This document shows, in pieces, positions 19,951 through 41,710 of a DNA stretch of 64,000 nucleotides; positions within the stretch are counted from its first letter, which is position 1, and every line of letters starts with the position of its first letter. Source of the DNA: Gemmatimonadota bacterium. Lineage in GTDB: Bacteria; Gemmatimonadota; Gemmatimonadetes; Gemmatimonadales; Gemmatimonadaceae. Under the pieces are notes generated by a model, which was not told the DNA's origin, searched no databases, and saw only the letters and a program-made list of their open reading frames with translations. Made by a program: the position numbers and the translations under genes. Where the stretch lies: the NCBI GenBank assembly GCA_947471365.1, contig CANIWQ010000002.1, forward strand, positions 1 through 64,000. Reading direction: 5' to 3'.

Positions 19951-21014
19951 GTGTCCTCGCGGTGCCAGCGCCACATCCGACGGATTCCGTCGTCGAACGA
20001 CGTCCAGGCATCGAGTCCCAACTCCGTGCGCGCCAACGCAATCGACGGCACGTAATGTGAGGCGTGGCCGTGACTCGTGGCCGGTGCGGATCCTGCGAAT
20101 TCCAGCGAGACTGGTGGCGTGGCGAGTGCAGCCACGCGCGACGCGGCGGTGCGCAGATCGTACGACTCTTCGGATCCCACGTTGTATGCGGCGCCGTTTT
20201 TTCCGTGCGTGAGCAACACCCAGCACCAAGCGGCGAGGTCGGCGGCGTAGAGCCACGAGCGCACGGCGGTGCCATCGCTGAGCAACGTGATGGGGCGCCC
20301 GGCAAGCGCGTCGCCCATGAAGTTGCCGAGGGCAAACTGGCCGTCGAGTGGTAACCGCGGACCGAAGAGCGCGAAGACGCGCGCACACACGCCGTGCACG
20401 CCGCGCGTGCAGGCGAGTTGTACGCGCTGCTCCGCGCGCCACTTGGCCGTGCCAAACCGTTCGGCGCCTTCCACGGCGTGTGCGCGACCCGCGAACGATT
20501 CCGGAATTCCCGTGGGTGGCACCGGTGGCGTGCCATAGATGGATCCGCTGCTCAACTGCAACAGACGCGTGCCCTTCGTGGACTCCGCTTCTTCGCACAT
20601 GCGTTCGGTGCCGTGCTCAATCAAGTCCACCACTTCGTCGGGCTGTTCGGCGTTCATGCGCGGCGTGGCCGCTGACGCCGAATGCACGATATGCGTAAAC
20701 GCGCGGGTCGGTGGATCGGCCATGCGCACATCGCCCACATGAATGCGGAGCGCCGCATCGGTCATCAGGTGCGGAAAGCGCGCGGCAAAGGTATCGCGAT
20801 CGCGCACGAGCGCGGTGACGTGCACACCGAGTTGCTTCGCGCGATTTGCCGCGAGGAGCGATTCGAGGAGCCAACTCCCCACAAAGCCGCTGGCGCCGGT
20901 GATAAAGACGCGTGCGTCGCGTAGGTCGTCCCACGCGGGAGCCGCGCGCTGCACCACGGCATCTAGGTCGGCGGCGGGCAACCGGGTCACGGGTCTGTCC
21001 TGGGGGGGGATCAT
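19947..21014 (-). CDS. NAD-dependent sugar epimerase/dehydratase-like protein with altered active-site Tyr
   Basis: 355 residues, extended SDR fold. It has FITGASGFVGSWLLE (NAD loop), HSASAATPRM, LQLSSGSIYG and the substrate-binding tail RSWLYAADLAAWCW. The canonical YxxxK reads FGTAK (ERFGTAKWRAEQ), so the catalytic Tyr is Phe while Lys is kept; this may mean a changed mechanism or loss of oxidoreductase chemistry. ATG 21014 is chosen; GTG 21053 right after the flippase stop is an alternative. It lies within the polysaccharide operon, between the flippase and the Fe-ADH. The sugar is unknown. Confidence 0.75.
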   Translation of the reverse strand: MIPPQDRPVTRLPAADLDAVVQRAAPAWDDLRDARVFITGASGFVGSWLLESLLAANRAKQLGVHVTALVRDRDTFAARFPHLMTDAALRIHVGDVRMADPPTRAFTHIVHSASAATPRMNAEQPDEVVDLIEHGTERMCEEAESTKGTRLLQLSSGSIYGTPPVPPTGIPESFAGRAHAVEGAERFGTAKWRAEQRVQLACTRGVHGVCARVFALFGPRLPLDGQFALGNFMGDALAGRPITLLSDGTAVRSWLYAADLAAWCWVLLTHGKNGAAYNVGSEESYDLRTAASRVAALATPPVSLEFAGSAPATSHGHASHYVPSIALARTELGLDAWTSFDDGIRRMWRWHREDT

Positions 21015-23742: not shown

Positions 23743-24677
23743 TCAAAATTGATCCGTTCGAGTTCGAACACGTGCGGCACATGCCGCACGTGCGTCCAGA
23801 TCGTACCCACATACTCGCCAACGATTCCGATGAAGAACAGCTGCACCGATGTCAACAGAAAGAAGCCGATAAGAATCGGCGCCACGCCCAGCGAGAACGA
23901 ATTCCAGAAGAGCAGTTTGGCCGCGAAGTATCCCAATGCTACGAGCACCGAGACGACCGACATCGCAAACCCCAGCATGGTGGCGATGCGCAGCGGAACG
24001 CGAGAATGGCTCGTGATACCCAGAAACGCCTGATCGTAGAGAGAGTAGAAGTTCTGCGACGTGATGCCGCGACGCCTTCGGGGTTGATGAAATGGCACGA
24101 GGACGGCAGGATAGCCAATCTCCGCGAGCAATCCGCGGAAGAACGGATAGGGATCATCGATGGCACGCATCGCCTCAACCACCGTGCGGTCGAACATGCC
24201 GAATCCTGTGGCCTGCGCCACGACGGGTGCATTCGACATTCGACCGAGGGTGCGGTAATACAATCCGCGAAGGCCATAGAACATCGACCGCTCCGCCGAC
24301 GACGTTTTGACCCCGAGGACGATCTTGGCTCCTGACTCCCAATGTTGAATGAACTCATCGATGAGTTCAGGAGGATCCTGAAAGTCGCACGCCAGCCCGA
24401 TCACCGCCGCACCGCGCGCCTGTAGCACCACGTGAATCCCTGAGCGCGCACCGCCAAAATTCCGTGCGTTGAAAATCGCTTTGACATTCGGGTCTTCCGC
24501 GCACATCTCCCGCAGCACGCGGCGCGTCGCATCCTTGGAGTTGTTATCAATGAAGATGTGCTCATACCGATACTGCGGATGACGCGCCATGACGGCTCGC
24601 ACCGCTTCGTATAACGGCCGCACATTTTCCTCCTCGTTGTAGCACGAGGTGACGACGGACAGCAGTTTCTGTGTCAT
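23739..24677 (-). CDS. GtrB/DPM1-like family 2 glycosyltransferase with C-terminal membrane helices
   Basis: 312 residues. The N-terminal GT2 domain shows VVTSCYNEEENVRPLYEAV, IDNNSKDATRRVL and the DxD-type LACDFQDPPELI motif, characteristic of polyprenyl-phosphate glycosyltransferases (GtrB, DPM1). Two C-terminal helices (AMSVVSVLVALGYF; LIGFFLLTSVQLFFIGIVGEY) anchor it. Such enzymes load a sugar on undecaprenyl phosphate for use by GT-C membrane transferases, several of which lie in this operon. The start ATG 24677 fits MTQKLLSVVTSCYNEE. Confidence 0.85.
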   Translation of the reverse strand: MTQKLLSVVTSCYNEEENVRPLYEAVRAVMARHPQYRYEHIFIDNNSKDATRRVLREMCAEDPNVKAIFNARNFGGARSGIHVVLQARGAAVIGLACDFQDPPELIDEFIQHWESGAKIVLGVKTSSAERSMFYGLRGLYYRTLGRMSNAPVVAQATGFGMFDRTVVEAMRAIDDPYPFFRGLLAEIGYPAVLVPFHQPRRRRGITSQNFYSLYDQAFLGITSHSRVPLRIATMLGFAMSVVSVLVALGYFAAKLLFWNSFSLGVAPILIGFFLLTSVQLFFIGIVGEYVGTIWTHVRHVPHVFELERINFE

Positions 24678-24715
24678 GGGAAACACGGATGAGAGGAAAG
24701 GCGGCGTGGCATACC

Positions 24716-25732
24716 TTAGGTGCCCTGCGCCAAGCCGTTGAGGCGCTGCAGTTGATCCCGCATCCAAAACGAGAGCCGAACAAGCAGTCGACTCCGACCG
24801 AGCAGGCGGGCCATCGGCAGCGCGAGCGGGATATACCCAATGCGGGTTCGCAGCAACTCGACGATCGCCGCCCACTGTGGATCGGCGCCAAGCACACCTT
24901 GATACCGCATCACGCGGGCCCAGGGGTATTCGTGCCGCAAGAGCTGCACAAGACCTCGAGCGCAGGCAGGACGTCGATCCCCAAAACACGCATCCGCCAG
25001 CATCGTGTACCCCTGCAAGTCCAGCAAGACACGCCGTGCCAAGCCATGCTCGCGAAAATGATCGTTGCCGAGGCGACAGTGCACGAGCGCATGGTTGAAA
25101 TACGTCAGCACCGCCCCGTCGGCACAGGCGCCGAGCAGTTTTTGCGAATGCACATACGCCGTGCCGATGAACGTGTCGTTGGTTGGAACGGCGTCCCACG
25201 CCTGCTTGCGAAATGCGGTCGACGAGAGATAACTGAATGCGGCAGCAAGCGAGCGCGCGTCGTTCAGATATTTTTCGAGCGATCCTGTTTGTGCAAACTC
25301 ATAGCGCAGATAATCGGCGCCCTTCGCATCTAAAAACCGATCTTCACGAATCGGCGTGAGCTCTTTGGTACACAAGAGACGATTGAACAGCACAATCGTC
25401 GGCTGCTGCTGGTCAATATGCGCCATTAACTGCCGCACCGCCCCGTCAGCAATCGGATCGTCACTGCCGAGGATCCAGCAGTACTCCCCCGTCGCAATCT
25501 CCACGCACTTCAGATAATTGCGGTCCGCCCCTTGGTTTTCGTCCCAGCGAAAATAGCGAACGTTACCGAGCCGTTTTCCAAGTTGGGCCACCAGCTCGGC
25601 GGTGTTGTCCGTCGACGCATTGTCCGCAACGGTGATCTCGAGGTCATCGCGCCACTGCGCCGCGATGCTCTCAAACGTCGCCGGGAGGTACTCGGCGCGA
25701 TTATACGTCGGAATGCAAATCGACAGTTTCAC
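24716..25732 (-). CDS. RfbV-like family 2 glycosyltransferase (probable dideoxyhexosyl transferase)
   Basis: 338 residues. MKLSICIPTYNRAEYLPATF, VADNASTDNTAEL and CWILGSDDPI match the GT2 group of abequosyl/tyvelosyl-type transferases (RfbV) of Salmonella O-antigen clusters. It directly follows the CDP-paratose/tyvelose genes and overlaps RfbE by 4 bases, so it is the best candidate to transfer the 3,6-dideoxyhexose (tyvelose or paratose). It has no membrane helix and is probably peripheral at the inner membrane. Confidence 0.78.
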   Translation of the reverse strand: MKLSICIPTYNRAEYLPATFESIAAQWRDDLEITVADNASTDNTAELVAQLGKRLGNVRYFRWDENQGADRNYLKCVEIATGEYCWILGSDDPIADGAVRQLMAHIDQQQPTIVLFNRLLCTKELTPIREDRFLDAKGADYLRYEFAQTGSLEKYLNDARSLAAAFSYLSSTAFRKQAWDAVPTNDTFIGTAYVHSQKLLGACADGAVLTYFNHALVHCRLGNDHFREHGLARRVLLDLQGYTMLADACFGDRRPACARGLVQLLRHEYPWARVMRYQGVLGADPQWAAIVELLRTRIGYIPLALPMARLLGRSRLLVRLSFWMRDQLQRLNGLAQGT

Positions 25733-26757
25733 CGAGCGCCCATCAGTTCGCGAGTCCAGTCCAGCATGCGGGCGAGGCCCTCGCGGGCGCTGACACGGGG
25801 CGTCCAGCCGAGCAGTCGTGTGGCCTTGGTTACATCGGCCACAAAGACTTTTTGGTCACTGTGCCGGGCCGCTCCCTGCGCAACGGGCATCGCTGCACCG
25901 GTCATGGACTCGAGCATCGCAAACAACTCGAGCAACGAGAGACTATTCGGCATGGCGCCGCCGACATTGAAGGCCTCACCGTGCACGGTGTTTAGGCGAG
26001 CAGCGGCGGCAGAGTACAGCGCGATCATATCATCGGCATGGAGTACATCGCGCACCTGACGTCCATTTCCTGCGATGCGTACCGCGTCCGTACCGCCGCG
26101 TTCGAGCCGCACAGCCTCCGACACAAACCAGCCAATCCATCCCTGATCGAACGTGGCAAACTGGCGGCCGCCATACATCGACGAATGCCGGAAGACGATC
26201 GTGCGAACGTCAAACATGCGCGCGTAATCCAGCATGTACTGGTCGGCCGCGCCTTTCGAACATCCGTATGGTGACCGGAAGTCCAGCGGCGTCTGCTCGT
26301 CAAAACCCTGCGGATGTTCGACGCACCGGTATCGCGTGACGTCTTCCGTGTAGCGGTACTGATCTAAATCGCCGTAGACCTTGTTTGTGGAGGAATACAC
26401 CACGCCTGCGTGTGGCGCGTGGGCCCGCACCGCTTCGAGCACGTTCAGTGAGCCGAGTGCGTTGATGGCAAAATCCGCGCGCGGATCGGCGATGGACGTG
26501 GTCATGGCCACCTGTCCCGCGAGGTGGAAAATCACAGTCGGCTGTGCGTCGCGCACGAGCGCCGCGACCGCGTCGGCGTCGCGGACATCACCGCGCACGA
26601 AACGAACAGTGCCAAGGGTGTCCAACCAGGCGCGATTCTGCTCACTCCCCACCCGCGAGAGGTTATCGAAGACGATGGGTTCCTCGCCTCGTCGGATCGC
26701 GTCGGCGGCCAGATTGCTGCCTAGGAACCCGCATCCACCCGTAATCAACAGCGTCAT
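25729..26757 (-). CDS. rfbE: CDP-paratose 2-epimerase (CDP-tyvelose epimerase)
   Basis: 342 residues, converting CDP-paratose to CDP-tyvelose. Close match to Salmonella RfbE landmarks as I know them: LLITGGCGFLGSNLA, VFDNLSRVG, FHLAGQVAMTTSIADP, YSSTNKVYGDLDQYRY, SPYGCSKGAADQYMLDYAR, FRHSSMYGGRQFATFDQGW and GRQVRDVLHADDMI. The YxxxK (YGCSK) is intact. It follows RfbS with an ATGA-type overlap. Its presence shows the operon makes tyvelose, not only paratose or abequose. Confidence 0.88.
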   Translation of the reverse strand: MTLLITGGCGFLGSNLAADAIRRGEEPIVFDNLSRVGSEQNRAWLDTLGTVRFVRGDVRDADAVAALVRDAQPTVIFHLAGQVAMTTSIADPRADFAINALGSLNVLEAVRAHAPHAGVVYSSTNKVYGDLDQYRYTEDVTRYRCVEHPQGFDEQTPLDFRSPYGCSKGAADQYMLDYARMFDVRTIVFRHSSMYGGRQFATFDQGWIGWFVSEAVRLERGGTDAVRIAGNGRQVRDVLHADDMIALYSAAAARLNTVHGEAFNVGGAMPNSLSLLELFAMLESMTGAAMPVAQGAARHSDQKVFVADVTKATRLLGWTPRVSAREGLARMLDWTRELMGAR

Positions 26758-27626
26758 GTGCTCGCTCCCGCGCCTTCGGTGTAGATCAACGCCGCGAGTC
26801 CGCTTTCCAGCGCGCGTCCGCCTCGCCAGCCGAGGGACGTCAGCATGGTCGTGTCGGCGCAGGCGCGCATCAGTTCATGCGGCCGATGCGGGATCGCGCC
26901 AAAATCGAGCACCGTGGCCGCACCGGTCACACGCTTGCATTGCTCCACGAGCGCTCGGATGGTCACGGGAATCCCGCGACCGATGCCAGCGGAGAGGTAG
27001 GGTTGTGCGACGGATTGCGCATGGGCCAGCAACAGCATGAACGCATCGACGGCATCATCGACATAGATAAAATCCCGACTCTGATCCCCCGGCGAGAGCG
27101 CAAGGCGAGGGACACCGTGTTGGAGCGCTCTCAACAGCGCTGGGAGAAATTTCTCCGGATCGTCGCCAATACCGTACAACGATTCAAGGCGGACGTTCAG
27201 CACGCGCACGTGATGCGCATCGGCCGCGCGGCGTGCGGCATCGGCGAACGCGCACTTCGTGCGGGCATAGGCGCTCAGCGCTGGCGGCAAGCTGGTGTCG
27301 ATGTTCACGAACAATTTCACGTGAGCGGCGGCACCTGCGTTGAGCAGCGCCAATGGCCACGCCACGTTGACCGCCGCAACCTCGTCGTCGGTAGCACCGT
27401 GCCGGCCATAGTGTGTGGCGCAGTGGATAATGACGTCGCACGCGGCCACCAGTTGCGCCGGATCGGATGCCGCGTCCATGACGTCCGCAGGGCGCACCAC
27501 ATCGGCCACGCGCGCGAGCGACGAGGCGGCACGAGCCGCAATTCGCACTTCGTGACCCTGGGCAATCAACGCGCGCACGAGATGGCTCCCAAAGAAACCG
27601 GTGGCGCCCGTCACTAAGACGCGCAT
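26754..27626 (-). CDS. rfbS: CDP-paratose synthase (CDP-3,6-dideoxy-4-hexulose 4-reductase)
   Basis: 290 residues, an SDR that reduces CDP-3,6-dideoxy-4-keto-D-glucose. Landmarks shared with RfbS/Prt: RVLVTGATGFFGSHLV, IHCATHYGRHGA, NIDTSLPPALSAYARTKCAF, DQSRDFIYVDDAVDAF and a PHELMRACADT tail. The YARTK motif supplies YxxxK. ATG 27626 follows a GTG at 27638 that is also possible. With rfbE immediately downstream the pair makes CDP-tyvelose. Residue-level separation from CDP-abequose synthase (RfbJ) is by similarity and by the epimerase neighbour. Confidence 0.82.
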   Translation of the reverse strand: MRVLVTGATGFFGSHLVRALIAQGHEVRIAARAASSLARVADVVRPADVMDAASDPAQLVAACDVIIHCATHYGRHGATDDEVAAVNVAWPLALLNAGAAAHVKLFVNIDTSLPPALSAYARTKCAFADAARRAADAHHVRVLNVRLESLYGIGDDPEKFLPALLRALQHGVPRLALSPGDQSRDFIYVDDAVDAFMLLLAHAQSVAQPYLSAGIGRGIPVTIRALVEQCKRVTGAATVLDFGAIPHRPHELMRACADTTMLTSLGWRGGRALESGLAALIYTEGAGAST

Positions 27627-27686
27627 GCGATCACTCACACCAGTCGACTGAGTGGACGTTCACTGAGCGTGCGATCAACGTCGCGC

Positions 27687-29510
27687 TCATGAATCGTTCC
27701 GCGGCACCTGCCGCGATCGCGGGTCGACGCGACCTAACTCGTTCTCCAGCACCGCCAGCGGCAACAACGGCGACATGTCTTCGAGCGGCATTGACACCAT
27801 CGACCCATCTGCGCGAGGCATGGCCGCCACCTTTGGGGCGAGCGTTTCGGTGGACGTCAGCGAGACATCACAGAGGTACGGACCGCGCTGCGCCAATGCA
27901 GCGTTGAGCCCGCTCGCCAAATCTTCGGCACGTGTAATGCGCATGGCAGGAATACCAATGGCCTCGCACACCTTGATCAGGTCTGGCATCACCAATCCAG
28001 ACTCGACCCCGGTACCGATGAACCGACTTTCAAAGTAGTTCCGCTGCGTGTTGCGAATGGAGGCGTAGCCCCCGTTGTTCATCACGATCAGCACGATCGG
28101 GAGCTGCAGTGCCTTGAGGGTGGAGAGTTCCTGCAAGTTCAACATCAGACTGCCATCCCCTTCCACACAGACCGTACGCTGCCGGCCGGTGCCAAGGCAC
28201 GCGCCGATCGCGGCGGGAAGGCCGTAGCCCATGGAGCCAAGCCCTGACGTAAGGAACACGCGTTGGCCCGGCTTGTTACGGAAGACGGTATAGAACACCT
28301 CGACGGCCAGCCCGGAGCTGCCGGTCACGCATAGCGTATCGGGCGCAAGCGCTTCGGAAAGCGCATCCACAAAACGGTAATGACTGATCTCGCCGGTGGC
28401 GTTCATCGGTTGTCCATCGCCAATACCATACCGGTGCTTCCAGTCCAGACAGCGCGCGCGCCACGGCGCCCAGTCTGGGTGCGTCACCGGTGGCGCCGCT
28501 TTCCACGCGTCAAGAAACGCGCGGGCATCGCTCCGTACCGTGAGTGCGACGTTGCCCTCTTGTCGCGCCAGTTCGTTTGCATCAATGTCGACAATGACCT
28601 TCGGGGCGCCGGCACCGAAGCTTCGATTGTCGAACCCCGTGACCACGTTGTCGAGGCGCGCACCGAGCGTAATGAGCAGGTCGCAACTTTGCACCGCAAA
28701 GTTCGGCGCACGGAACGCCACCACACCGGGGCGCCCTATCAACAGCTCGTGCTCCCACGGCAGCAGATCGAGCGCGTTCCACGTGGTGACCACCGGAATG
28801 CCGAGCTGCTCGGCAACGGCGCGGAACAGCGCAGCCGCCCCGCTGATGCGGACGCCGTGACCCGCGAGGAGAAGCGGACGCTCCGCCGTGGCGATCAAGG
28901 CGCTGAGAGACTGCAGGGTGGCGTCGAGCGACGGCGCCGTTTCGAGTGGAGGCGTGAAGCCTTCGAGTCGTGCCGGATCCACCTGCGCCGCTTGCACGTC
29001 GAGTGGAATATCGATCCACACTGGGCCGGAGCGTCCGTGCCGCATTTCGTACAGCGCGCGCTCGAGGTGATACCGGATGCGCTCGGGCGATTCCACGGTC
29101 ACGGCGTACTTGGTGACCGGCTTCACCATTGCCACCACGTCCACTTCCTGTACGCCACTTTGCCGGAGCGGACGCCCCGCCAAGAGATCCGCGCGCTTCA
29201 CCTGCCCCGAGAGCACGAGCAAGGGCAGCGACTCAATCCACGCACCGGCCACTGGGGTCAGGGCGTTGGTCGCGCCAGGTCCCGTGGTGACCATCACAAC
29301 GCCGAATCCAGCCGTGCCGTCTGCTTGCACGCGACCGTTCGCCTCGGCGGCGATCCCGCAGGCCTGCTCGTGATGGCAGGGCACGGCCTCGATGTTCGGT
29401 TGACAGGCGAGCGCATCGTTCAAATGCATCGCGCCGCCTCCGGCCAACATGAACAGCTGGCGCACGCCCTCCTCCGCGAGTCGCGCCATCACATAGTCCG
29501 CTGCGCGCAT
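27687..29510 (-). CDS. Acetolactate-synthase-like ThDP enzyme (possible YerE-type sugar carboligase)
   Basis: 607 residues with the full three-domain acetolactate-synthase layout. The N-terminal PYR domain has GGGAMHLNDAL and the catalytic-Glu HHEQACGIAAEA. A central domain follows (RPLLLAGHGVRISG). The C-terminal PP domain carries VEGDGSLMLNLQELST...NNGGY (GDG-x-NN ThDP/Mg motif). There is no IlvH-type regulatory subunit. It is sandwiched in the CDP-sugar operon, so ordinary branched-chain amino-acid synthesis is unlikely. YerE, a related enzyme, adds a two-carbon unit from pyruvate to CDP-3,6-dideoxy-4-ketoglucose to make yersiniose; this gene is a candidate for the same type of step. ATG 29510 is chosen; GTG 29525 overlaps the previous gene. 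Confidence 0.8.
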   Translation of the reverse strand: MRAADYVMARLAEEGVRQLFMLAGGGAMHLNDALACQPNIEAVPCHHEQACGIAAEANGRVQADGTAGFGVVMVTTGPGATNALTPVAGAWIESLPLLVLSGQVKRADLLAGRPLRQSGVQEVDVVAMVKPVTKYAVTVESPERIRYHLERALYEMRHGRSGPVWIDIPLDVQAAQVDPARLEGFTPPLETAPSLDATLQSLSALIATAERPLLLAGHGVRISGAAALFRAVAEQLGIPVVTTWNALDLLPWEHELLIGRPGVVAFRAPNFAVQSCDLLITLGARLDNVVTGFDNRSFGAGAPKVIVDIDANELARQEGNVALTVRSDARAFLDAWKAAPPVTHPDWAPWRARCLDWKHRYGIGDGQPMNATGEISHYRFVDALSEALAPDTLCVTGSSGLAVEVFYTVFRNKPGQRVFLTSGLGSMGYGLPAAIGACLGTGRQRTVCVEGDGSLMLNLQELSTLKALQLPIVLIVMNNGGYASIRNTQRNYFESRFIGTGVESGLVMPDLIKVCEAIGIPAMRITRAEDLASGLNAALAQRGPYLCDVSLTSTETLAPKVAAMPRADGSMVSMPLEDMSPLLPLAVLENELGRVDPRSRQVPRNDS

Positions 29511-29521
29511 GGTGGGTGTGC

Positions 29522-31015
29522 TCACATCCAAAACGCGAGAATCGTCTTCCGCTGCGTGTTGGCGGCGATGGCGGAATCGGTGTAGAACGAATCGTCCACG
29601 AAGTGCGTGGACGAGATCTCCTCAAACACCACGCCGGTGTCGGTGTGAAATTTGTGGCGCATCTCGCGAGACACCGTCACCACATCACCCGGCGCCACAT
29701 CCCGCGCTTCCCCGTCGAGCCAAAGACGCATCGTACCGTGCAGAATGACGAATGTTTCTTCCTTACGATGGTGATACTGCTCGGGATGCGTTTGCCCCGG
29801 CAACATCACGAGCAATTTCTTGGCATACTCGCGGTTCACCACCGTGATCATCGACAGCCCCGTTTCCGGAAACTTCGCCATGCCGTAGTGATGCGAGATC
29901 TCAAGGTGCGCGCGCCCGGGAACGATAATATTTCCCTGCGTCAGGAGCGCTTTCACCGCGCGCACCGCATTCAGCACGAGCGAGCGATCATTGCTGGTGT
30001 CGATCGCCATCTGGAGCACCGGCTCCCCTGCCGCAATCGCCACACGCGTCGTGTAGTGCGCATACTTGGACCACTCGTTCGCGGTCAACTGTCCTTCAAC
30101 GGGCGGGAAGGCGAACTCCACGTCGTCCCGTCGCAGCGACTGCCCCGCCGCCACCGGTCGGACGGCAAACACACCGCGGCGCAGGGAGCGCAAACTTGCC
30201 CCTTCCTCGGGGAATGGCTCAAGCCGTTCGGCGGGGCCGCTCATCGCGAAGGCGCGACGCGCGGCGGTGAGCCAGGTGCGCACTTGATCGGGCGTCGCCG
30301 AGTAGGCGTTCGCCTTGTAGGCCCCCACCTCGAGCGCGACGTGCTTCTCGAACACGGTCGCCCCCTTGGCCACCGCCATCATCACCGGCACCGAGTCGGC
30401 TGGATCCTCATGCGTCGAAAATCCGATGCGCACATTCGGGTACCGCGTGCGCAGCACGTCGATCTGCGACAACCGCAAATCCGCATCGGGCGTCGGATAC
30501 TCGGCGACGCAATGCATGAGTGTGAGTGCCTTGCCGCGGTGCACCAGAAAACTCACCACCGCATCAATTTCGTCGAGGCTCGCTCCGGCAGTCGATGCGA
30601 TCACCGGTTTGTCGACGAGCGCAATGCGTTCGAGCAACGGCCAATCGGTGAAGGAAGCACTTGCGATCTTCACCATCTCAACGCCGTGCGCCTCAATGAG
30701 ATCCACCGACGGTTCGTCGAACGGCGTGCACAGTGAGATGAACCCATGCGCGTGAATGGCCGTCACGAGCTCGAGATACTGCGCGTGACTGAGCCGCGTT
30801 TCTTCAAAACGCTTCACATACTTGATGTCCGCACGGCCCTTGGCGCTGGAATGGATGAACGTGTCGAGATCGCGATACTGTAATTTGAAGGCGAACTGGA
30901 AGTCGTCGAAGCCATGCACCGCCGCCTGCATCGCCGCGATGAGCGCGCGCCCATGAGCAAGGTCGCCCATGTGGTTATTCGCCATCTCGAGTATGAACAG
31001 GGGTCGGTTATCCAT
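29522..31015 (-). CDS. NeuB-like PEP-condensing synthase fused to SAF and cupin domains
   Basis: 497 residues, about 150 longer than plain NeuB. Residues 1-250: NeuB barrel with FILEMANNHMGD, LMHCVAEYPTP, IGFSTHEDP and GATVFEKHVAL. Roughly 275-335: SAF/antifreeze-like domain (VRPVAAGQSLRRDDVEF). Roughly 375-480: cupin resembling D-lyxose-isomerase-type proteins (HHRKEETFVILHGT, DVVTVSREMRHKF, FEEISSTHFVDDS). NeuB enzymes join PEP to an aldose to form sialic-acid-like nonulosonates. No CMP-nonulosonate synthetase or UDP-GlcNAc epimerase is in the window, so the substrate is unclear. It lies between rfbH and the ThDP enzyme. ATG 31015 follows GTG directly. Confidence 0.82.
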   Translation of the reverse strand: MDNRPLFILEMANNHMGDLAHGRALIAAMQAAVHGFDDFQFAFKLQYRDLDTFIHSSAKGRADIKYVKRFEETRLSHAQYLELVTAIHAHGFISLCTPFDEPSVDLIEAHGVEMVKIASASFTDWPLLERIALVDKPVIASTAGASLDEIDAVVSFLVHRGKALTLMHCVAEYPTPDADLRLSQIDVLRTRYPNVRIGFSTHEDPADSVPVMMAVAKGATVFEKHVALEVGAYKANAYSATPDQVRTWLTAARRAFAMSGPAERLEPFPEEGASLRSLRRGVFAVRPVAAGQSLRRDDVEFAFPPVEGQLTANEWSKYAHYTTRVAIAAGEPVLQMAIDTSNDRSLVLNAVRAVKALLTQGNIIVPGRAHLEISHHYGMAKFPETGLSMITVVNREYAKKLLVMLPGQTHPEQYHHRKEETFVILHGTMRLWLDGEARDVAPGDVVTVSREMRHKFHTDTGVVFEEISSTHFVDDSFYTDSAIAANTQRKTILAFWM

Positions 31016-31037: not shown

Positions 31038-32363
31038 TTAGGATCGCGCCGAGCTGTTAACGAAATCGTGAATACTCTCGACAATCCACGCGAGCATCGG
31101 TGCCGTCAGGCCTGGATAGCATCCCACCCAGAGCGTCCCGCGCATGATCGCGTCGGAGTTCGGTAGATCACCAATCACGCGATACGTCAATCCCCGATAC
31201 GCCGGCTGGCGCACCAGATTGCCGCCGAACAATAAGCGCGTGCCAATCAATCGATCATCGAGAAACTTCACCAAGGCGTTGCGCGTGAAGCCCGCATCAT
31301 CGCGAACACGCATCGGGAAGCCAAACCAGCTTGGTTCGGCCTTGGGATGCACGGTGGCAAACTCCAGTACGTGCGACAGGTTGGCGAGGTGCGCGCGCAG
31401 ATAGTCGTAGTTGCGGCGACGGGTTTCGATAAACCCATCGAGGTGGTCAAGCTGTGCCACACCCACCGCCGCCTGCATGTCGGTCGCCTTTAGATTGTAG
31501 CCGATATGCGAGTACGTGTACTTGTGGTCGTAGCCGAACGGCAGGTCGCCGAGTTGATATTCGAACCGTTTGCCGCAGGTATCCGCCTTGCCGGGGTCAC
31601 ACCAGCAATCGCGGCCCCAGTCACGAAACGACTCAACGATGCGCTTGAGCTTGGGAGAATGCGCCAGCACGGCCCCGCCTTCACCCATCGTGATATGGTG
31701 CGCCGGATAAAAACTCACCGTCGCAAGATCACCAAAGGTGCCGACCGACTTGCCGTCGAACTTGGCACCCACGGCATCGCAGCAATCTTCAATCAACCAG
31801 AGTTTGTGCTGTTCGGCGAACGCTTTCACCGCGCCAATGTCGTACGGATTTCCGAGTGTATGTGCGACAATGATCGCCTTGGTGCGCGACGATCGCGCGG
31901 CCTCCAGCTGCGACACATCGATTCCATACGACGGAAGCTCAACGTCGACGAACACCGGCACGAGGCCGTTTTGAAAAATCGGATTCACCGTGGTCGGGAA
32001 ACCGGCCGCCACGGTGATCACCTCGTCGCCCGGCTTGAGTGCGCGATCTTCGAGCAGGTGCGACGTGAGCGCGCTCACCGCCGCGAGATTCGCCGAGGAG
32101 CCCGAGTTTACGAGCATCGCGTGACGCGCCGACATGCGCTGGGCAAAGCGCCGCTCGAACTCCGCGGCGAAGCGACCGGTGGTGAGCCAGAAATCCAGCC
32201 CGGCGTCCACCAGCGATTGCACGTCCGTGGCATCGAAGACGCGCCCCGTCACGGGCACCGGTGATTCACCTGGAACGAACGCTCGATCGGCGAACGCTTC
32301 GGCGTGATATTCGGCGACCAGCCCCAGAATCTGTGCGCGGAGCGCGTCGGCGCGCTCAGTCAC
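31038..32363 (-). CDS. rfbH: CDP-6-deoxy-L-threo-D-glycero-4-hexulose-3-dehydrase (E1)
   Basis: 441 residues, a PMP-dependent, 2Fe-2S-containing enzyme that removes the C3 hydroxyl in CDP-3,6-dideoxyhexose synthesis. It is identified by an aminotransferase fold in which the PLP lysine is replaced by His ([15 protein letters not shown]). The iron-sulfur cysteines are also present ([27 protein letters not shown]). The length matches RfbH/AscC. GTG 32363 is preferred ([16 protein letters not shown]), overlapping rfbG by 8 bases. The reaction needs an E3 reductase (RfbI/AscD), which is not found in this window. Confidence 0.92.
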
Positions 32364-33348
32364 GCTGCAGGAACTCCCGGTACCACGCAATCGTGCGATC
32401 CAGTCCTTCGTCGAGCGTAAACGCTGGCGTCCAGTTTAGCAGGCGGCGCGCCTTGGCGGCCGTGAGCCATTGGTGCTGAATCTCGTGCACGGCCTCGCCA
32501 CGCACATCCGGCGTGAGGGACAGCTGCATGCGTTCCAATACGCGACGCGTCAACGCCAGCACATCGACTTGCAGTTCGTTCGAGAAGTTAAACGCCTCGC
32601 CAATGAGCTCCGGCCGACCGTGTAAGGCTTCGGCGAGTTGCATATACGCGGCGGCGCCATCTTCCACGTAGAAATAGTCGCGAATGAGCGTGCCGTCCGA
32701 ACGGATCACCGGCCGTTCGCCCTTGAGCGCGGCGCGAATGACACCTGGGACGAGCCGGTTCCAGTTGAGATCACCGCCGCCATAAAAATTGCCGCACCGC
32801 GTCACGCACACCGGCACCCGGTAGGTGTTGGCGTACATCGTGGCAATCAGATCGGCGCACGACTTGCTGGCGTCATACGGATGCCGGCCTTGGAGCGCAG
32901 CGGTCTCATCATACGGCAACGTTTCGTGATCGCCGTACGCTTTATCGCTCGACGCCACGACGATCGCTTTCACGGCGGGGCTGCGACGCGCCGCTTCCAG
33001 CAGGGCCCACGTGCCGCGAATGTTCGTGTCGAGCGTAGACACCGGGTTGCGATTGGCCACACCGACGATCGTCTGCGCTGCCAAATGGAAAATGCTGTCG
33101 ATCTCGTACTCGCCCAGCGCGCGCTCCAACAAGGCCTGATTGCGCACGTCGCCGCGCACCATCTTCACGCGCTGTAGCAAGTGCGTCGAGAGAAGCAGCG
33201 AGTGTGGCACGTGATCGCGCACGAGCACCGTAACGTCCGCGCCTTGTTCGATCAACTGGCGCACCAACCACCCGCCGAGCAGGCCGGTGGCGCCCGTGAC
33301 AAACACCGGACGATCACGCCAATGCGCGGGTTGCGAAATCGTTGTCAT
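32356..33348 (-). CDS. rfbG: CDP-glucose 4,6-dehydratase
   Basis: 330 residues, extended SDR making CDP-4-keto-6-deoxyglucose. NAD loop [49 protein letters not shown], active YDASK and [18 protein letters not shown] are characteristic of RfbG. ATG 33348 overlaps the rfbF stop (ATGA); another ATG lies five codons upstream. Second step of the CDP-dideoxyhexose pathway. Confidence 0.92.
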
Positions 33349-34118
33349 TTCCACGTTCTCCATGGCGGCGAACCGCCAGCCCAGAGCGATTCCAGCAGAT
33401 GGACATCACGCAGCGTGTCCATCGACTGCCAGAATCGTTCGTGCCGGAACGCGCGCAACTGTCCTTCGGACGCCAGTCGCTCGAGCGGGTCCCGTTCCCA
33501 CAGGGTCGCGTCGGACTCGATATAGTCGAGCACCTGCGGTTCGAGAACAAAGAAACCGCCGTTAATCCACCCTTCGCTCATCTGCGTCTTTTCGGCGAAG
33601 GTGCGCACCTCGTCACCGTCGAGCGCAATGGAACCGAAACGCGCCGGCGGACGCACCGCAGTCACGGTCGCCAGCTTGCCGTGCGATTTGTGGAACGCAA
33701 TCAACGCGGTGATGTCCACGTCACCCACGCCGTCACCGTAGGTGAGGCAGAAGGTTTCGTTGCCAATCCACTCTTTCAAACGACGCACGCGACCGCCGGT
33801 CTGCGTAGTGAGACCCGTATCGATCAGGTGCACCGTCCAGTCTTCCTGCTCATTCGTGCCGTGGGTCGTGACATGCCCGTCGGCGAGCCGGATAGTGGAA
33901 TCGTGCATCGCCGCCCGATACCCCAGAAAGTACGAGCGGATGAAGTCGGCCTTATACCCGAGCGCGAGCACGAACTCTTTCAGTCCGTGCGCCCCGTACA
34001 AGTTCATGATGTGCCACAGCATCGGACGGCCGCCGATTTCCACCATCGGCTTGGGCCGTACGGTCGTTTCTTCCTGCAGCCGCGTGCCGAGTCCGCCGGC
34101 AAGAATCACGACTTTCAT
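33345..34118 (-). CDS. rfbF: Glucose-1-phosphate cytidylyltransferase
   Basis: 257 residues. The nucleotidyltransferase start [19 protein letters not shown] and [17 protein letters not shown] match RfbF exactly. Also present are [17 protein letters not shown] and the [20 protein letters not shown] tail. It makes CDP-glucose, the first committed step. It opens the rfbF-G-H block, with only 33 bases to the upstream glycosyltransferase gene, so it is part of the same long operon. Confidence 0.93.
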
Positions 34119-34151: not shown

Positions 34152-35837
34152 CTAAGGTATCACCGGCGCCTCTCGGCGTACTAGATGCAGGAGCTGAATC
34201 GTCACATTTTGAGCCGAGTACTTGGCGGAGTCGGCGTCCGCATATCGCCGGTGGAGCACGGTCAGAGCGCTGCTGGCGGCGTCATTGGGCTGTTGCACCA
34301 GCCAAAGCTCCCGGGGCGCCTGCTCCCGCAGGGCGGCGACCATAACCTCGTCCGCATAGCGCGGCCGCACGGTACCGGCACCGCCCCCGACCCGCCGATA
34401 GCTCCCCGCCTCGAGCGGCGACCAGAGCCCCCACCGGTTGGTGGCCGGAAACACCACCGTGGTCGATTCCGTGGGCGCGAGCGCCGCGAATGCCACGTTT
34501 AGGGCGTGGTGGAAACCCGTGAACTGCAGATTGTACGCCAGATGATCCGCGTCCCGAACCCTGAAATCGTGTGACAGGCGCGACACGTGATACACCTCGG
34601 CTCGGCCCAGCGACCAGGTCCCAAAGAGGAGCCGCGAGACGGGGTCGAACGACGCCCGAACAGAGCCGAACAGCACGAGTGCGTAGCTGGCGAGCAGCAG
34701 GCGTCGGACACGCGTCGGGGTCTTGAGGGCGTCGAGCGACATCAGGGCGCATATCAGGAGTACCGGCAACAGCACCAAGAAATACCGGGGGAAACTCCAG
34801 GTGCGGTACACGGTGAGAGCGTACGTCAGCACGACAGCGAGGATGGCGAGGATCGCCCGGTGTCCGTCGGCCGTGGTGGAGGGAGCCTGGACGATCGCAG
34901 ACTCAGACGTGCGCCCACGGCGCCAGCCCGCGACCAAACGCTGGCCCAGCGCCGCGACAATGGCCGTCGTCGGAATCCAAGCAAACCCGAGCACAAAAAT
35001 GATGGCGGCGTAGCTCCGGAATATCGGGTCGTCGAGGTCGAACCAGCGCATGCCGGCCAACGGACGCTCGTGCATCCCCTGATTCCACACGACGTACGAC
35101 GCTTGCGTGTTCGCCCACCACGCAAGAAAGGCCGCGTATACTGCCAGTGGAGCAAAGGCTGGCGCCAGCGCGCGTGCCGCCTGAACCAACGAACCGAGCG
35201 CCACGGACGCTGACGCCCGCTTGGGCACCGCATCCGATCGCGCCCGGTCAGCGCGAACGACCCGAACCGCTCGCTCCGTCACCAGTGTTGCCACGAGCAC
35301 GGCGTATACCAGCGCACCGGTCTCCTTGCTGAAACAGAGCACGAGTCCCGCCGCCGCCGCGAGCCAGCGCTGCTCGCGCCAGAAAAACGCGAGGCACATC
35401 AGCAAGAACACATAGACGCCGTAATCGCTGTTGAGTTGCACCAACGACGCCAGCGCCAGCGGATGGACCGCGAGCGTCGTGGTCAACAGCGCCCGCTCGA
35501 CCGCGCGCTCCTCACTCGGCCACAGTACAAGCAGGATGGCGTGAAAAGCCCAGAGGGCGCCCCAGGCGAGGAGTACGTTGGCCAGGAGGAGACGCGTGGT
35601 ATTGCCGGGATCACCCAGTTGACTCAGCGCCAGCCACGCCATCGTGAGCTGCGAGTGGTGACCGCCGCACCGCAGCGCCGATACGCTCCATCCGCTGCGC
35701 GCCGCGTCGACCACGCAATCGAAGTAGACGCGCCCGTCCCAGATGGGCACAAAGCGATGCTCCGGCCACACCAGGGCGAGCACCAGCGCTGCGGGAATCG
35801 CTCCCCACCAGCGGCGGAGCCATGCCGGCATTGTCAC
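34152..35837 (-). CDS. GT-C fold membrane glycosyltransferase (paralogue A)
   Basis: 561 residues with a dozen or so predicted helices. Features shared with the next upstream gene: RFVPIWDGRVYFDC (a GT-C acidic loop after helix 1), ALRCGGHHSQLTMAWLAL, LNSDYGVYVFLLMC and LCFSKETGALVYA. A C-terminal soluble part contains TNRWGLWSPLEAGSYRR. It is related to GT39/ArnT-like polyprenyl-phosphate-sugar transferases. GTG 35837 gives GTGA coupling to paralogue B; ATG 35831 is possible. It probably adds a sugar from undecaprenyl-phosphate sugar (made by the GtrB-like enzyme) on the periplasmic side. Confidence 0.72.
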   Translation of the reverse strand: MTMPAWLRRWWGAIPAALVLALVWPEHRFVPIWDGRVYFDCVVDAARSGWSVSALRCGGHHSQLTMAWLALSQLGDPGNTTRLLLANVLLAWGALWAFHAILLVLWPSEERAVERALLTTTLAVHPLALASLVQLNSDYGVYVFLLMCLAFFWREQRWLAAAAGLVLCFSKETGALVYAVLVATLVTERAVRVVRADRARSDAVPKRASASVALGSLVQAARALAPAFAPLAVYAAFLAWWANTQASYVVWNQGMHERPLAGMRWFDLDDPIFRSYAAIIFVLGFAWIPTTAIVAALGQRLVAGWRRGRTSESAIVQAPSTTADGHRAILAILAVVLTYALTVYRTWSFPRYFLVLLPVLLICALMSLDALKTPTRVRRLLLASYALVLFGSVRASFDPVSRLLFGTWSLGRAEVYHVSRLSHDFRVRDADHLAYNLQFTGFHHALNVAFAALAPTESTTVVFPATNRWGLWSPLEAGSYRRVGGGAGTVRPRYADEVMVAALREQAPRELWLVQQPNDAASSALTVLHRRYADADSAKYSAQNVTIQLLHLVRREAPVIP

Positions 35838-37438
35838 CGCGCGATGCGCACGAGTTTGCGCGCGATGAGCGTGTGCCCCGCGACCGTCGTGCGCAACACC
35901 GCCGTCTGCCGGTATCGCGCTGAGAGACGCTCTCGCGACGAGTCGGCGTCAGGGCGGTAGGAGAAGTCGAGCCACCAGACCACTGGCGGCGGCGCGGGGG
36001 TAGAAAGCAGATCTTCATCGTCCCAATAGCGCGGAACAATCACCCCATCGCGAAGCATCGTGCGGCGCCAGTTGCGTTCATCCAGCTGGCTCCAGATGTT
36101 CCAGCGAACACTGCGCGCGGTGGCGTAGGCCGTGGAATCATTGGGGTGCATCGAACGGAAGAGCGCGTTCTGCACTGTATGGAATCCCGTAAACTCAAGA
36201 TTGTATACCAACTGGTCGCGCCCAGGACCTCGATACTCACCGGTGATCGATGCCATGCGGTACATGTCGCGCTGACCAACAGAAAACGTGCCGTACACTC
36301 GGCGCGAGACAGGATCGACCGAGCGGAACGACGCGAGTACGAATAACGCCGCCACCGAGGCAATCACCACACCGCGCCACCGTGGACCAACGCCCAGCCG
36401 CAGCAATGCCGCGAACGCAAGCAGAATGAACAGCGGATACAGCAACGCGAAATACCGCAGGTTGCTCCAGGTCCGGAACGCCGTCAGCACGTACGTGAGT
36501 ACGACGGTGAGCGTGGTGAGATACCAGAGCATTGTCGTATCGGCGCCCGCGACCGTGCGCGTGGGTTGCCGACGCGCCAGCCGCACACCGCCTACCAGCG
36601 CATCGGACGCGATGATGGCGCTCAGCACCCAGCCAAACCCCAGCACAAAAAGCCCAGCGGCATAGCTGAGGAACACCGGCTCGCTGAGATCGAACCACTT
36701 GAAGCCGTCCATCGTCCCCTGCTGCCACTGATGCCGCCAAATGGCCGACGACGTATGCGTCGCGTTCCACCAGAGCACGTAGACGCCAAAGAGTACCAGC
36801 GGAAAGAGCGTCATGGCGCGCGGCTGTAGGCGCTTGAGGCGATCGATAAGCGGTCCCGTATCGCGACGCATGGCAAACGCGGCGGCGAGGCCGATCATCG
36901 CTCCATAGGCAAGTACCCCCGTTTCTTTCGAGAAACAGAGAAACACGCCAGCCAGCACGACCCATCGCCACGCCTGTTTGAGCAGCGCGGCCAGTGCGGC
37001 AAAGAAAAACACGTACACGCCGAAATCCACATTCGGTTGTACGAGTGTCGAGAGCAGCACCGGATGTACCGCACAGACGACGGTCAGCCCGTCGAGTGCG
37101 CGCGCATGCTCACGCGCCGGAAACACGCGACCTAACACCACACGAATGCTCGCGAGCGCGAGGATGCCCAGCAGCACGTTGGTGAGGTGCAACAGCGTGA
37201 TGTCGCCCAAGCGCAGGAACTGCGGGAGGGCGAGCAGCAAGGCGTACCCCTGCGACGGGTGACCCGCGCACCGCAGAGATTCGAGCGACAATCCATCGGT
37301 CGCCGCGCCCATGGCGCAGTTGGCAAAGATGCGCCCATCCCAGATCGGCACATAATTGCGTTCGGGCATGAGGAGCAGCACAAACGCTGCGGCAATCATG
37401 ACGAAGTTGAACAGGCGTTCGCGTTCATGCGCGTTCAT
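35834..37438 (-). CDS. GT-C fold membrane glycosyltransferase (paralogue B)
   Basis: 534 residues. It shares NYVPIWDGRIFANC, SLRCAGHPSQGYALLLAL, PNVDFGVYVFFFAALA and FLCFSKETGVLAYGA with the next gene, showing a tandem duplication. Predicted topology is an N-terminal acidic periplasmic loop, many helices and a small C-terminal soluble domain (VRWNIWSQLDERNWRR). ATG 37438 overlaps the preceding gene by ATGA. Sugar and acceptor unknown. Confidence 0.72.
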   Translation of the reverse strand: MNAHERERLFNFVMIAAAFVLLLMPERNYVPIWDGRIFANCAMGAATDGLSLESLRCAGHPSQGYALLLALPQFLRLGDITLLHLTNVLLGILALASIRVVLGRVFPAREHARALDGLTVVCAVHPVLLSTLVQPNVDFGVYVFFFAALAALLKQAWRWVVLAGVFLCFSKETGVLAYGAMIGLAAAFAMRRDTGPLIDRLKRLQPRAMTLFPLVLFGVYVLWWNATHTSSAIWRHQWQQGTMDGFKWFDLSEPVFLSYAAGLFVLGFGWVLSAIIASDALVGGVRLARRQPTRTVAGADTTMLWYLTTLTVVLTYVLTAFRTWSNLRYFALLYPLFILLAFAALLRLGVGPRWRGVVIASVAALFVLASFRSVDPVSRRVYGTFSVGQRDMYRMASITGEYRGPGRDQLVYNLEFTGFHTVQNALFRSMHPNDSTAYATARSVRWNIWSQLDERNWRRTMLRDGVIVPRYWDDEDLLSTPAPPPVVWWLDFSYRPDADSSRERLSARYRQTAVLRTTVAGHTLIARKLVRIAR

Positions 37439-38943
37439 TTGCGCACCTCGGTGAACGACCACGCGGCTTCGTCAAAGAGGTACGCGGCTCGCCGTGGCGC
37501 CGCGCGCAGGAGCCGCGCATTGGCATCGCCCCGGTCATGCACAATCCACGAGGGCGATTCGGCCAGCGGGCCTTCATTTGCCACAAGCGAAATATGCATA
37601 CTGCGCCGCTCCGCATAGCGAACGAAGACGATGTTTGGCGTGCGCGGCAACTCGCGGACCGCGGCGCGAAATGCGCGCGGCTCCTCAGACAAGCGTTCCA
37701 CCACACGGCGCGCATCGGCGATATCCACCACCGATAACCCTGCGCCGAGCGCCAGCGCAGCGGTCAGCAGGCGCGATCGCCATGCTGCGTTCACCACAGC
37801 CGGCGATCGCGACACCAACCATGCGGCACCGACCGCCGCGAGAAAAGCGAACACCGGCATCGCTTCGAGATAATAAATGGTCCAATCTGCCGTGTGCGCC
37901 TGCGCGAGATAGCCGGCCATCAGCAGGAGCGCCGTGAGGAGCGCAAACCACCCCGCCGCCTCGGCAACAAACAGCCCCACCACGGCCGTCACTGCAAAGG
38001 GCAAGCGCCAGCCGCCGAACGCATCGCGGAGGAGCAGCGAGCTGCGTGTCGTCGCCGTGACCACGACGGGATCATTCGCCTGCTGCTGTTTGATGTTCGC
38101 CAAAAATCGCCGCACGCGTTCCATCTCAGCGGGGAGCGCCCGCTCCGGCGGCGCGGTATTCACCGTATAGCCAGGCACATCAAACGGCAGATACTGCGCC
38201 GTGTACACCGCCAGCGCATTCTGGCGCCAATCACCGGTGGTGCGCGCATTCCAGAGCGGGAGAATCGCAAGCACGGCCAGACCGGTGAACACACCGGTAC
38301 ACAAGGCGCGCCAACGGCGCCCCTGCCACACATCGCGGAGCACCACCACGCCAACCGGAATCGCAAAGACAAACATCGTGGCTGGTCGTGTGATGGCGCC
38401 CCAACCGATCGCCGATGCCAGCAGGATCATCCACCGACGGCGGCGCGTCTCGCGCCACTCGAGCAAGGCCCACCACGCCAGGAGCCAGCAGGCAGACGTT
38501 GTGAGTTCGGAGAAGTAGCTCGCGCGAAAGCGCAGATTGCCAAACGTCGTGAGCCAGAGCACGAACGTGAGCACCGCGACGCCGCTATTCGCCACGCGGC
38601 GCGCCAGTACGTACACGAGTGCGCCGGCGAGTGCCGTGAGGAGCACGGGGACGAACCCTGGCACACCGAGCGCGAAGCCGAGCGCCATCGTGAGGGCATG
38701 CCCAGGCGGGTACTTCACCGCCCACACGGGCGATACCAACACATACAGCTGCTCAAAAAACTCCGGCACCGGCGGAGCGATTTCCGTCCAATGCGCGTGC
38801 GCGTACAAACCGGCCTGCGTCCAGTAGGCCCATTCGTCGTGCATCACCGGAACCGGCGCGAGCGACTGCCACACCACGAGCACCGCGCACGCCGAGAGGA
38901 GTGCGGCGATCCATGGCGCCCAGCGTTCCAGGCGGGCGTTCAA
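37435..38943 (-). CDS. GT39-like membrane glycosyltransferase
   Basis: 502 residues. [20 protein letters not shown] is the typical first periplasmic loop (H-D-E in place of the usual D-E pair), followed by [17 protein letters not shown], the YPPG/YPPL hallmark of GT39-type enzymes. About ten helices and a short C-terminal soluble tail follow. It overlaps both neighbours by 4 bases. Likely an inner-membrane transferase using a lipid-linked sugar. Confidence 0.75.
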
Positions 38944-40571: not shown

Positions 40572-41710
40572 CGCACCGCGACCTTCACGCGGAGCGCGTG
40601 CAACACCGTGCCCAGCACGAGCGCCACGAGATATCCGTAGGGAAGCGAGGCCGCCACCACTCCCAAAAACAGCGCCAGCGCAAAGTCGCGGGACTCGCCC
40701 GCAATGTCGCGAAGCAGCGCGAGAATCGCGACGCCTTCCACGAGGAGCAACACACCCAGCATTGGCTTCGGAAACAGGAGCGCCACTTGCCCGACGCTCC
40801 CGCCAAGAAACAGTCCGACGGCCGCCAGGGCCGTGCCAGCAATGATCACCGATCCGCCCGTCCGACCACCGAACGAATAATGACCAGCCATGCCGCCAGA
40901 GCCATGGCACACAGGAATCCCGCTCACGAGTGGACTCACCAGGTTCATCAGCGAATAGGTGATACCGATGCGCCGAATCGTCAGCGGCTCGCGCTCTGGA
41001 AAGAGGTCGGCGGCCACCTGCTTGGTGGCGAGCACCGAGTTCCCGAGCGAGAGCGGAATCTGCGGCAGGGCCAGTAAGAGAAAGCCACCCCAGATGGCTG
41101 CGACATTGGGCATGTGAGGCACGGGAAGATGCACGCCGAGCGCGGCGATGGCCGGCGTACTGGCGCCCCCCACCGTGAGCGCGAATACTCCCCCGAGCGC
41201 GAGCACAATCGGCGCCGGCGGAAAACGCCGATTGCCGAGCAAGGCCACGACGATCACGAACGCCACGGCCGCGAGGGCATAACCGGCCGCTCCGCCCGAC
41301 GGCACATAATCCGCCACCGCGATGCGAGAGAGCTGCAACCCGAGCCCGCACTGAATCCCCCGCACCACCACCTTGGGCACCACGCGGGCGAGCCAATCGA
41401 GCGCGCCGGTCAGCACCAGCACGAGCATCAGCGCGCCAATCGCAAACCCGCCCCCATAGACCAAATCCGGACTCACTTGCTGTGCAATCACAATGGCCGC
41501 CACCGCTTTTAGCGGTTGCACGGGCATCGGCATCCGGTACACGAGGCCGGTCAGGATCTGCAGGGCCCCGAACGTCACAAGTACGCTGGTGGCATCGAGA
41601 TGCGCCGCCGCGATCATCCCCACAATAAGCGGTAGCGACGTCCCTAAATCGCCAAACGCACCGGAAACTTCGTTCCGGTCAAAGCGTAGGTTTTCTGTGG
41701 CTGGTGGCAT
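40568..41710 (-). CDS. MOT1-type molybdate/sulfate transporter-like protein
   Basis: 380 residues, about ten membrane helices. It has the twin signatures of MOT1 (SulP-related) transporters: [19 protein letters not shown] near the start, [18 protein letters not shown], and in the second half [18 protein letters not shown] with [20 protein letters not shown]. These bind molybdate (or sulfate) in plants and bacteria. Its stop overlaps the FAD oxidoreductase start, so it is probably the first gene of the long minus-strand operon; only 44 bases separate it from the divergent ABC gene. Confidence 0.8.

Follow-up and report, generated by a model that had tools for sequence, protein, structure and literature searches.

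A 64,000-nt stretch of the genome of a Gemmatimonadota bacterium (assembly GCA_947471365.1, contig CANIWQ010000002.1, forward-strand positions 1 to 64,000; hereafter the window) carries on its minus strand an operon for cytidine diphosphate (CDP)-activated sugars, which includes two adjoining genes, one for a NeuB-SAF-cupin fusion protein (NeuB-cupin) and one for a carboligase dependent on thiamine diphosphate (ThDP). Here, we report that this pair is a conserved module, not an accident, and propose that it probably makes a keto acid of seven to nine carbons and transfers it, less one carbon, to give a long C4-branched 3,6-dideoxyhexose. Branching by YerE-like ThDP enzymes is already known; in the literature searched, of which our coverage was partial, we found no description of a NeuB-isomerase feed. 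We also lean, more cautiously, towards a wider proposal, in which a single polypeptide combining an isomerase and a phosphoenolpyruvate (PEP)-dependent synthase, fused in one genome to a phosphatase as well, is a widespread and unrecognised keto-acid feed that supplies a C8 or C9 acid to YerE-like enzymes, is interchangeable with a pyruvate aldolase and may explain branches of the gastriose and caryophyllose types.

The pairing recurs across a broad range of bacteria. In a scan of 84,980 species genomes, 80 loci were retained, each encoding a NeuB-cupin relative at 52–66% identity; 79 of the 80 are intact, and in 75 of the 79 a ThDP gene lies directly downstream, frequently overlapping its neighbour, which argues that the association is more than chance. 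Among the 56 well-covered loci, defined by at least 5.5 kb of upstream sequence, the ThDP gene is present in 55, RfbH in 50 and the full set of RfbF, RfbG and RfbH in 47, so that the gene order for which an earlier note on this DNA had recommended a search is indeed found in other genomes. The rows of our tree alone cover Pseudomonadota, Actinomycetota, Thermodesulfobacteriota, Chlorobiota, Bacteroidota, Cyanobacteriota, Myxococcota and one Saganbacteria metagenome-assembled genome; a tblastn search of plasmids gave no match. HAD genes stand within the module neighbourhood in many loci, and one genome of the host’s order encodes a NeuB-cupin-HAD triple fusion (locus L129, 7961–10240, minus strand) that adjoins a Gfo/Idh/MocA oxidoreductase gene, with no ThDP gene in the 19.9 kb, an arrangement that suggests another fate for the same keto acid. 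The fusion and the nearby HAD genes fit a series of isomerase, synthase and phosphatase like that for 3-deoxy-d-manno-octulosonate (Kdo).

In the window, the minus-strand order is rfbF, an rfbG-like gene, rfbH, the NeuB-cupin gene, the ThDP gene, a gene for a short-chain dehydrogenase/reductase (SDR), one for an RfbE-like epimerase, and glycosyltransferase genes. The features that bear directly on the module are as follows.

33345–34118, minus strand: RfbF-like glucose-1-phosphate cytidylyltransferase (TIGR02623, 378 bits; cut-off 300).
32356–33363, minus strand: divergent RfbG-like CDP-glucose 4,6-dehydratase (TIGR02622, 218 bits, below the cut-off of 278; same slot in relatives).
31038–32390, minus strand: RfbH, CDP-4-keto-6-deoxyglucose 3-dehydrase, predicted to make the 3-deoxy 4-keto acceptor (PRK15407 RfbH, 710 bits; cut-off 423).
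29525–31015, stop codon at 29522–29524, minus strand: NeuB-SAF-cupin fusion, proposed sugar isomerase and PEP-dependent 2-keto-3-deoxy-acid synthase (Pfam NeuB, 2.3e-42; SAF; Cupin_2).
29525–29989, minus strand: C-terminal D-lyxose-isomerase-type cupin domain, residues 366–520 of the NeuB-cupin open reading frame (ORF) (profile, Pfam and fold).
27687–29525, minus strand: YerE/JanthE-like ThDP carboligase with a GTG start (best PDB match JanthE, 8rph; in a clade with NeuB-cupin-linked relatives).

The most probable start of the NeuB-cupin gene is the ATG at 31015, which is preceded by GGGAG. For the ThDP gene, a GTG start at 29525 gives a 4-nt overlap (GTGA) with the NeuB stop codon, and a TTG start at 29531 gives a 10-nt overlap with the NeuB gene; the GTG is the likelier of the two. 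The earlier note had described the two ORFs as lying between rfbH and rfbS with intact catalytic motifs and about 10 bases in common. Both are present and intact between rfbH and an SDR gene, and their motifs are in place, with the catalytic Glu and cofactor motif of the ThDP enzyme found and the NeuB positions conserved in 42 relatives but for one; the overlap agrees with the TTG start and shrinks with the likelier GTG.

The NeuB part of the fusion protein is 65% identical to the Chromobacterium violaceum structure 3g8r, and the AlphaFold2 model of the whole protein has a predicted local distance difference test score (pLDDT) of 91.6. A Pfam NeuB domain is present with its PEP and metal residues conserved: the equivalents of K53, K129, S132, S154, Y186, S213, H215, E234 and H236 of Neisseria meningitidis NeuB are invariant in the alignment of 42 relatives, that of E25 is kept in 41 of them, and that of Asp247 is Asn in all 42; these N. 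meningitidis residues are catalytic ones. Scores against the N-acetylneuraminate and pseudaminate synthase equivalogs fall below their cut-offs (147 against 400 bits and 130 against 340 bits, respectively). The C-terminal domain, initially regarded as a regulatory or unassigned cupin, was reassigned after profile and fold searches. Its profile finds the D-lyxose isomerase 2y0o in the PDB at 2.4e-16, Pfam Lyx_isomer is found in 41 of 41 NeuB-cupin members, and the ten best Foldseek matches to its AlphaFold model (pLDDT 95) are all D-lyxose isomerase chains (2y0o at 4.7e-12, TM 0.77). The positions aligned to the His, Lys, Glu and His of D-lyxose isomerases are kept. By the agreement of profile, Pfam and predicted fold, the cupin is thus a D-lyxose-isomerase-type domain.

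In Pfam, the three domains of TPP enzymes are all found in the ThDP protein, which also has the catalytic Glu (HHEQA) and a cofactor motif of the form GDG...NN. Its best PDB match is JanthE (8rph, 401 bits, against 266 for the best acetohydroxyacid synthase (AHAS)), and in the tree it groups with 40 NeuB-cupin-linked relatives in a clade separate from AHAS. It is thus closer to YerE-like enzymes than to AHAS, with rfbF, rfbG and rfbH alongside. As a separate observation, 27 of the 35 matched sequences in our alignment A3 of ThDP relatives have SDG in place of the canonical GDG cofactor motif; the window protein has GDG and JanthE has CDG. In RfbH (P0003), His replaces the Lys that binds pyridoxal phosphate and the Cys cluster motif is present, as in 66 of 66 related ORFs. 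By its equivalog score and these motifs RfbH is a genuine 3-dehydrase, and CDP-4-keto-3,6-dideoxyglucose is therefore the expected intermediate.

In NeuB reactions, PEP is joined to an aldose through its free aldehyde, and a PEP-dependent synthase of this kind yields a 2-keto-3-deoxy acid. Because YerE-like enzymes consume α-keto acids, transferring the acyl part to C4 of CDP-4-keto-3,6-dideoxyglucose, the simplest reading is that the NeuB product is the ThDP donor. In the pathway that we propose, the cupin domain would first convert a ketose to a manno- or lyxo-type aldose, as its fold and partly conserved active site suggest; this aldose would probably be a pentose, for instance lyxose, or perhaps a hexose, and could be free or phosphorylated. 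The NeuB domain, given its conserved residues, would then join the aldose to PEP, giving a 2-keto-3-deoxy acid of eight carbons from a pentose or nine from a hexose, from which the HAD phosphatase, where there is one, might remove a phosphate. By analogy with YerE, ErwE and JanthE, the ThDP enzyme would decarboxylate the keto acid and add the acyl anion to C4 of CDP-4-keto-3,6-dideoxyglucose, the acceptor that RfbF, RfbG and RfbH would supply. The SDR or an iron-containing alcohol dehydrogenase (Fe-ADH)-like protein may reduce the resulting 1′-ketone, and methyltransferases may decorate the branch. The expected product is a sugar with a polyhydroxylated branch that has a CH2 at 2′, destined for a surface polysaccharide.

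NeuB-cupin occurs in 5 of 249 Mycobacterium-group genomes, including that of Mycobacterium gastri, in which the one close copy of the ThDP gene lies in the module (707 bits; next 219) and is followed by an HAD phosphatase and a methyltransferase gene. Seven other Mycobacterium-group genomes have a ThDP relative 36–39% identical to the M. gastri enzyme, and the slot beside it holds an HpcH/HpaI-type aldolase in five (assigned in four from Pfam matches that are weak though above the cut-off, and in the fifth from 93% identity) and a cupin-less NeuB in two, with the two nested among the five in the tree. Pyruvate aldolases and PEP synthases both make 2-keto-3-deoxy acids. The gastriose branch is a 1,3-dimethoxy-4,5,6,7-tetrahydroxyheptyl chain, which is the remnant expected of a C8 keto acid formed from a pentose and PEP. 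A 2-keto-3-deoxy-acid donor requires that the branch carry oxygen at 1′, none at 2′ and oxygen at 3′, and caryophyllose, 3,6-dideoxy-4-C-[altro-1,3,4,5-tetrahydroxyhexyl]-xylo-hexose (PMC5706390), matches exactly. Caryophyllose addition in M. marinum is blocked when any one of three genes is deleted, namely MMAR_2331, MMAR_2332 for the ThDP enzyme and MMAR_2333 for a glycosyltransferase (PMC5706390); judging by the local gene order, MMAR_2331 may be the aldolase. ErwE favours 4-hydroxy-2-oxo acids over pyruvate, and the M. gastri enzyme MygE takes C3–C8 keto acids (PMC12247030). Because the M. gastri genome has a single close copy, we infer that MygE is the ThDP enzyme of its module. M. gastri is typified by a C4-branched 3,6-dideoxy-xylo-hexopyranose, ‘gastriose’ (Gilleron 1993, 1994). 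Together, the aldolase slot swap, the fused isomerase, the HAD fusion and the structure of the caryophyllose branch argue that NeuB makes the keto-acid donor.

Several points weigh against this proposal. We found no HAD phosphatase in the window operon, and in all members the cupin has Gln at a position where D-lyxose isomerases have a metal-binding His in the alignment. A full rfbF-rfbG-rfbH set is missing nearby in 9 of the 56 well-covered loci, and the ThDP gene is missing at two Magnetococcales loci (L076 and L078), at L049 and at the triple-fusion locus L129; the NeuB part can therefore serve other paths. For gastriose, the papers confirm only a ‘C4-branched 3,6-dideoxy-xylo-hexopyranose’ and not the seven carbons of its branch. 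MygE was inactive with ketones in vitro, a result reported without explanation (PMC12247030). For this organism, the activity, the substrate, the sugar structure and the identity of the aldose are predictions from sequence.

The earlier note had arranged the two enzymes in the opposite order, with the ThDP enzyme transferring a two-carbon unit from pyruvate to the CDP-ketosugar and NeuB then adding PEP to the product. YerE does use pyruvate on CDP-3,6-dideoxy-4-ketoglucose (PMC12247030), and the two genes are adjacent, but a branched CDP-sugar with a 4-C acyl group offers NeuB none of the free aldehyde that its chemistry needs, and this order leaves the isomerase-type cupin, the HAD fusion and the replacement of NeuB by an aldolase beside the ThDP gene unexplained. 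We therefore consider it quite improbable; the evidence points to a long branch from a NeuB-made keto acid instead of a two-carbon one. What survives from that suggestion is the branch point at the RfbH product, with both enzymes in a branch that would lead to a branched, higher-carbon sugar, and the recurrence of the gene order. That such a sugar may not have been described holds for this organism and not for its class, which includes gastriose, caryophyllose and erwiniose. It is also unlikely, if less so, that the two proteins serve separate sugars of the same polysaccharide, with pyruvate used by the ThDP enzyme for a C2-branched sugar like yersiniose, and an unrelated ulosonic acid made by NeuB-cupin. 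The existence of pyruvate-using YerE enzymes and the L129 locus would fit such a division, whereas the direct adjacency and frequent overlap across the intact loci and the slot swap with the aldolase would not, and no NeuA/KdsB-type CMP-sugar synthetase was found among the window genes scanned.

Two further explanations deny the pair a role in sugar branching. That the ThDP enzyme is an ordinary acetolactate synthase with a distant IlvH partner, one of the outcomes that the earlier note had named as refuting its reading, has next to no probability. The protein does match the acetolactate synthase equivalog TIGR00118, but at 335 bits against a cut-off of 538, whereas the true AHAS of module-bearing genomes score 762–855 bits, and the tree separates the two. 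The host genome, a 98.8% complete draft, has no IlvH domain and no IlvC by searches that detect them in 13 and 14 of 14 controls, and its other two ThDP relatives are distant. An ordinary branched-chain enzyme was accordingly rejected; within the limits of a draft genome, a role in making acetolactate for branched-chain amino acids is excluded. Independently of the module, the missing IlvC and IlvH at this completeness mark the host (G000) as a possible branched-chain amino acid auxotroph. It is likewise very improbable that CDP-tyvelose is the sole product of the operon, with NeuB-cupin and the ThDP enzyme as idle passengers. The operon does encode a strong homologue of the CDP-tyvelose 2-epimerase (P0005, 452 bits to 1orr), but both module genes are intact, their catalytic sites are conserved and their DNA is 89% collinear in a sister species without that epimerase. 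The genes downstream of the module are as follows.

26754–27638, minus strand: SDR reductase (Pfam Epimerase; no specific NCBIfam match).
25729–26757, minus strand: RfbE, CDP-tyvelose 2-epimerase homologue (P0005).
24716–25732, minus strand: GT2 glycosyltransferase, within the block exchanged in the sister species (Pfam Glycos_transf_2).
17214–20598, minus strand: Fe-ADH-like and FkbM methyltransferase genes, candidate accessory genes (Pfam).

The window and the sister species (genome G259, locus L128) are collinear at 89% over a region that starts at the ThDP gene and runs past rfbF, and again at 87% beyond the glycosyltransferases. The block between, 24654–27726, is replaced by a stretch containing a different SDR, 29% identical to that of the window, and a genome search of the sister finds no close RfbE (best 39%, elsewhere). 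With the module retained in the sister and RfbE missing, it is the tyvelose epimerase that varies and the branching module that is stable; NeuB-cupin and the ThDP enzyme were thus discarded as CDP-tyvelose genes, and the description of the pair as lying inside a CDP-tyvelose operon was too strong. The SDR has no specific family match, and could be either an RfbS-like 4-ketoreductase (paratose synthase) or a YerF-like branch-ketone reductase. Homologues of the Fe-ADH-like and FkbM genes lie near the module in L026, L044, L050 and L064; in the tree, two of these loci (L044 and L064) belong to the nearest neighbours. On the other side, 34152–41396 encodes three membrane/PMT-like proteins and an amine-oxidase-like ORF (PRK07208), kept beside the rfb genes in several genomes of the same genus and absent from the 80 other loci.

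Related arrangements occur in other genomes. In line with the proposed keto-acid feed, a NeuB that lacks the cupin is encoded close to a ThDP relative in six genomes scanned from the genus of the window, and in one locus of this genus (L131, G260:C1, 5268–9911) a 3-dehydroquinate-synthase-like gene, a short-chain dehydrogenase gene and RfbE adjoin such a pair, for which a cyclised 2-keto-3-deoxy product is conceivable. L006 and L021 have a second ThDP gene (358–367 bits to P0001) and a second NeuB relative (93–102 bits) a few kilobases downstream of the main module. At L076 and L078, NeuB-cupin lies beside a long ORF, the start of which resembles B12-binding radical-SAM proteins.

The module names a donor route for YerE-like enzymes, open to testing by means of recombinant proteins. 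According to a 2025 review (PMC12247030), some 200 YerE-like enzymes are predicted and for most of them no sugar structure is known, and the physiological substrates of JanthE are stated to be unidentified (PMC12188165). If the proposal is correct, long-branched surface-polysaccharide sugars would be expected in Rhodocyclales, Chromobacterium, Pseudomonas, mycobacteria, Desulfuromonadales and others, the making of the typifying sugar of M. gastri would be explained, and the two enzymes would offer biocatalysis a natural pair for joining long polyol chains to ketones.

The module has features in common with several known systems. The window ThDP enzyme shares with YerE, ErwE, JanthE, MMAR_2332 and MygE its sequence subclass, its rfbF-rfbG-rfbH setting and the proposed 4-C branching of a CDP-3,6-dideoxy-4-ketohexose; in contrast to them, it is proposed to be fed by an adjacent NeuB-isomerase fusion rather than by pyruvate or an aldolase product. 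Another close system is the gastriose pathway of M. gastri, which has the same module (L068/L112) with both the ThDP enzyme and NeuB-cupin 55% identical to those of the window. That locus carries HAD and methyltransferase genes, whereas the window operon lacks HAD, and the window adds genes for RfbE, RmlC-like and Fe-ADH proteins and for other glycosyltransferases; its sugar may therefore differ in stereochemistry or decoration. NeuB/PseI-type synthases have the same NeuB TIM barrel and SAF domain, metal His and PEP-contact residues, and differ from the window protein, which falls below their equivalog cut-offs, replaces Asp247 with Asn, bears a C-terminal isomerase domain and has no CMP-sugar synthetase seen nearby. 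The cupin resembles the D-lyxose isomerases YdaE (2y0o), Thermofilum 7nzo and Escherichia coli Z5688 in fold, domain length and most conserved motif positions, although it is fused to NeuB and has Gln at one aligned metal-binding His. The overall logic of isomerase, PEP synthase and HAD phosphatase is that of the Kdo route (KdsD-KdsA-KdsC), built here from other isomerase and synthase families, and with a product that is proposed to lose CO2 and become the branch of a sugar.

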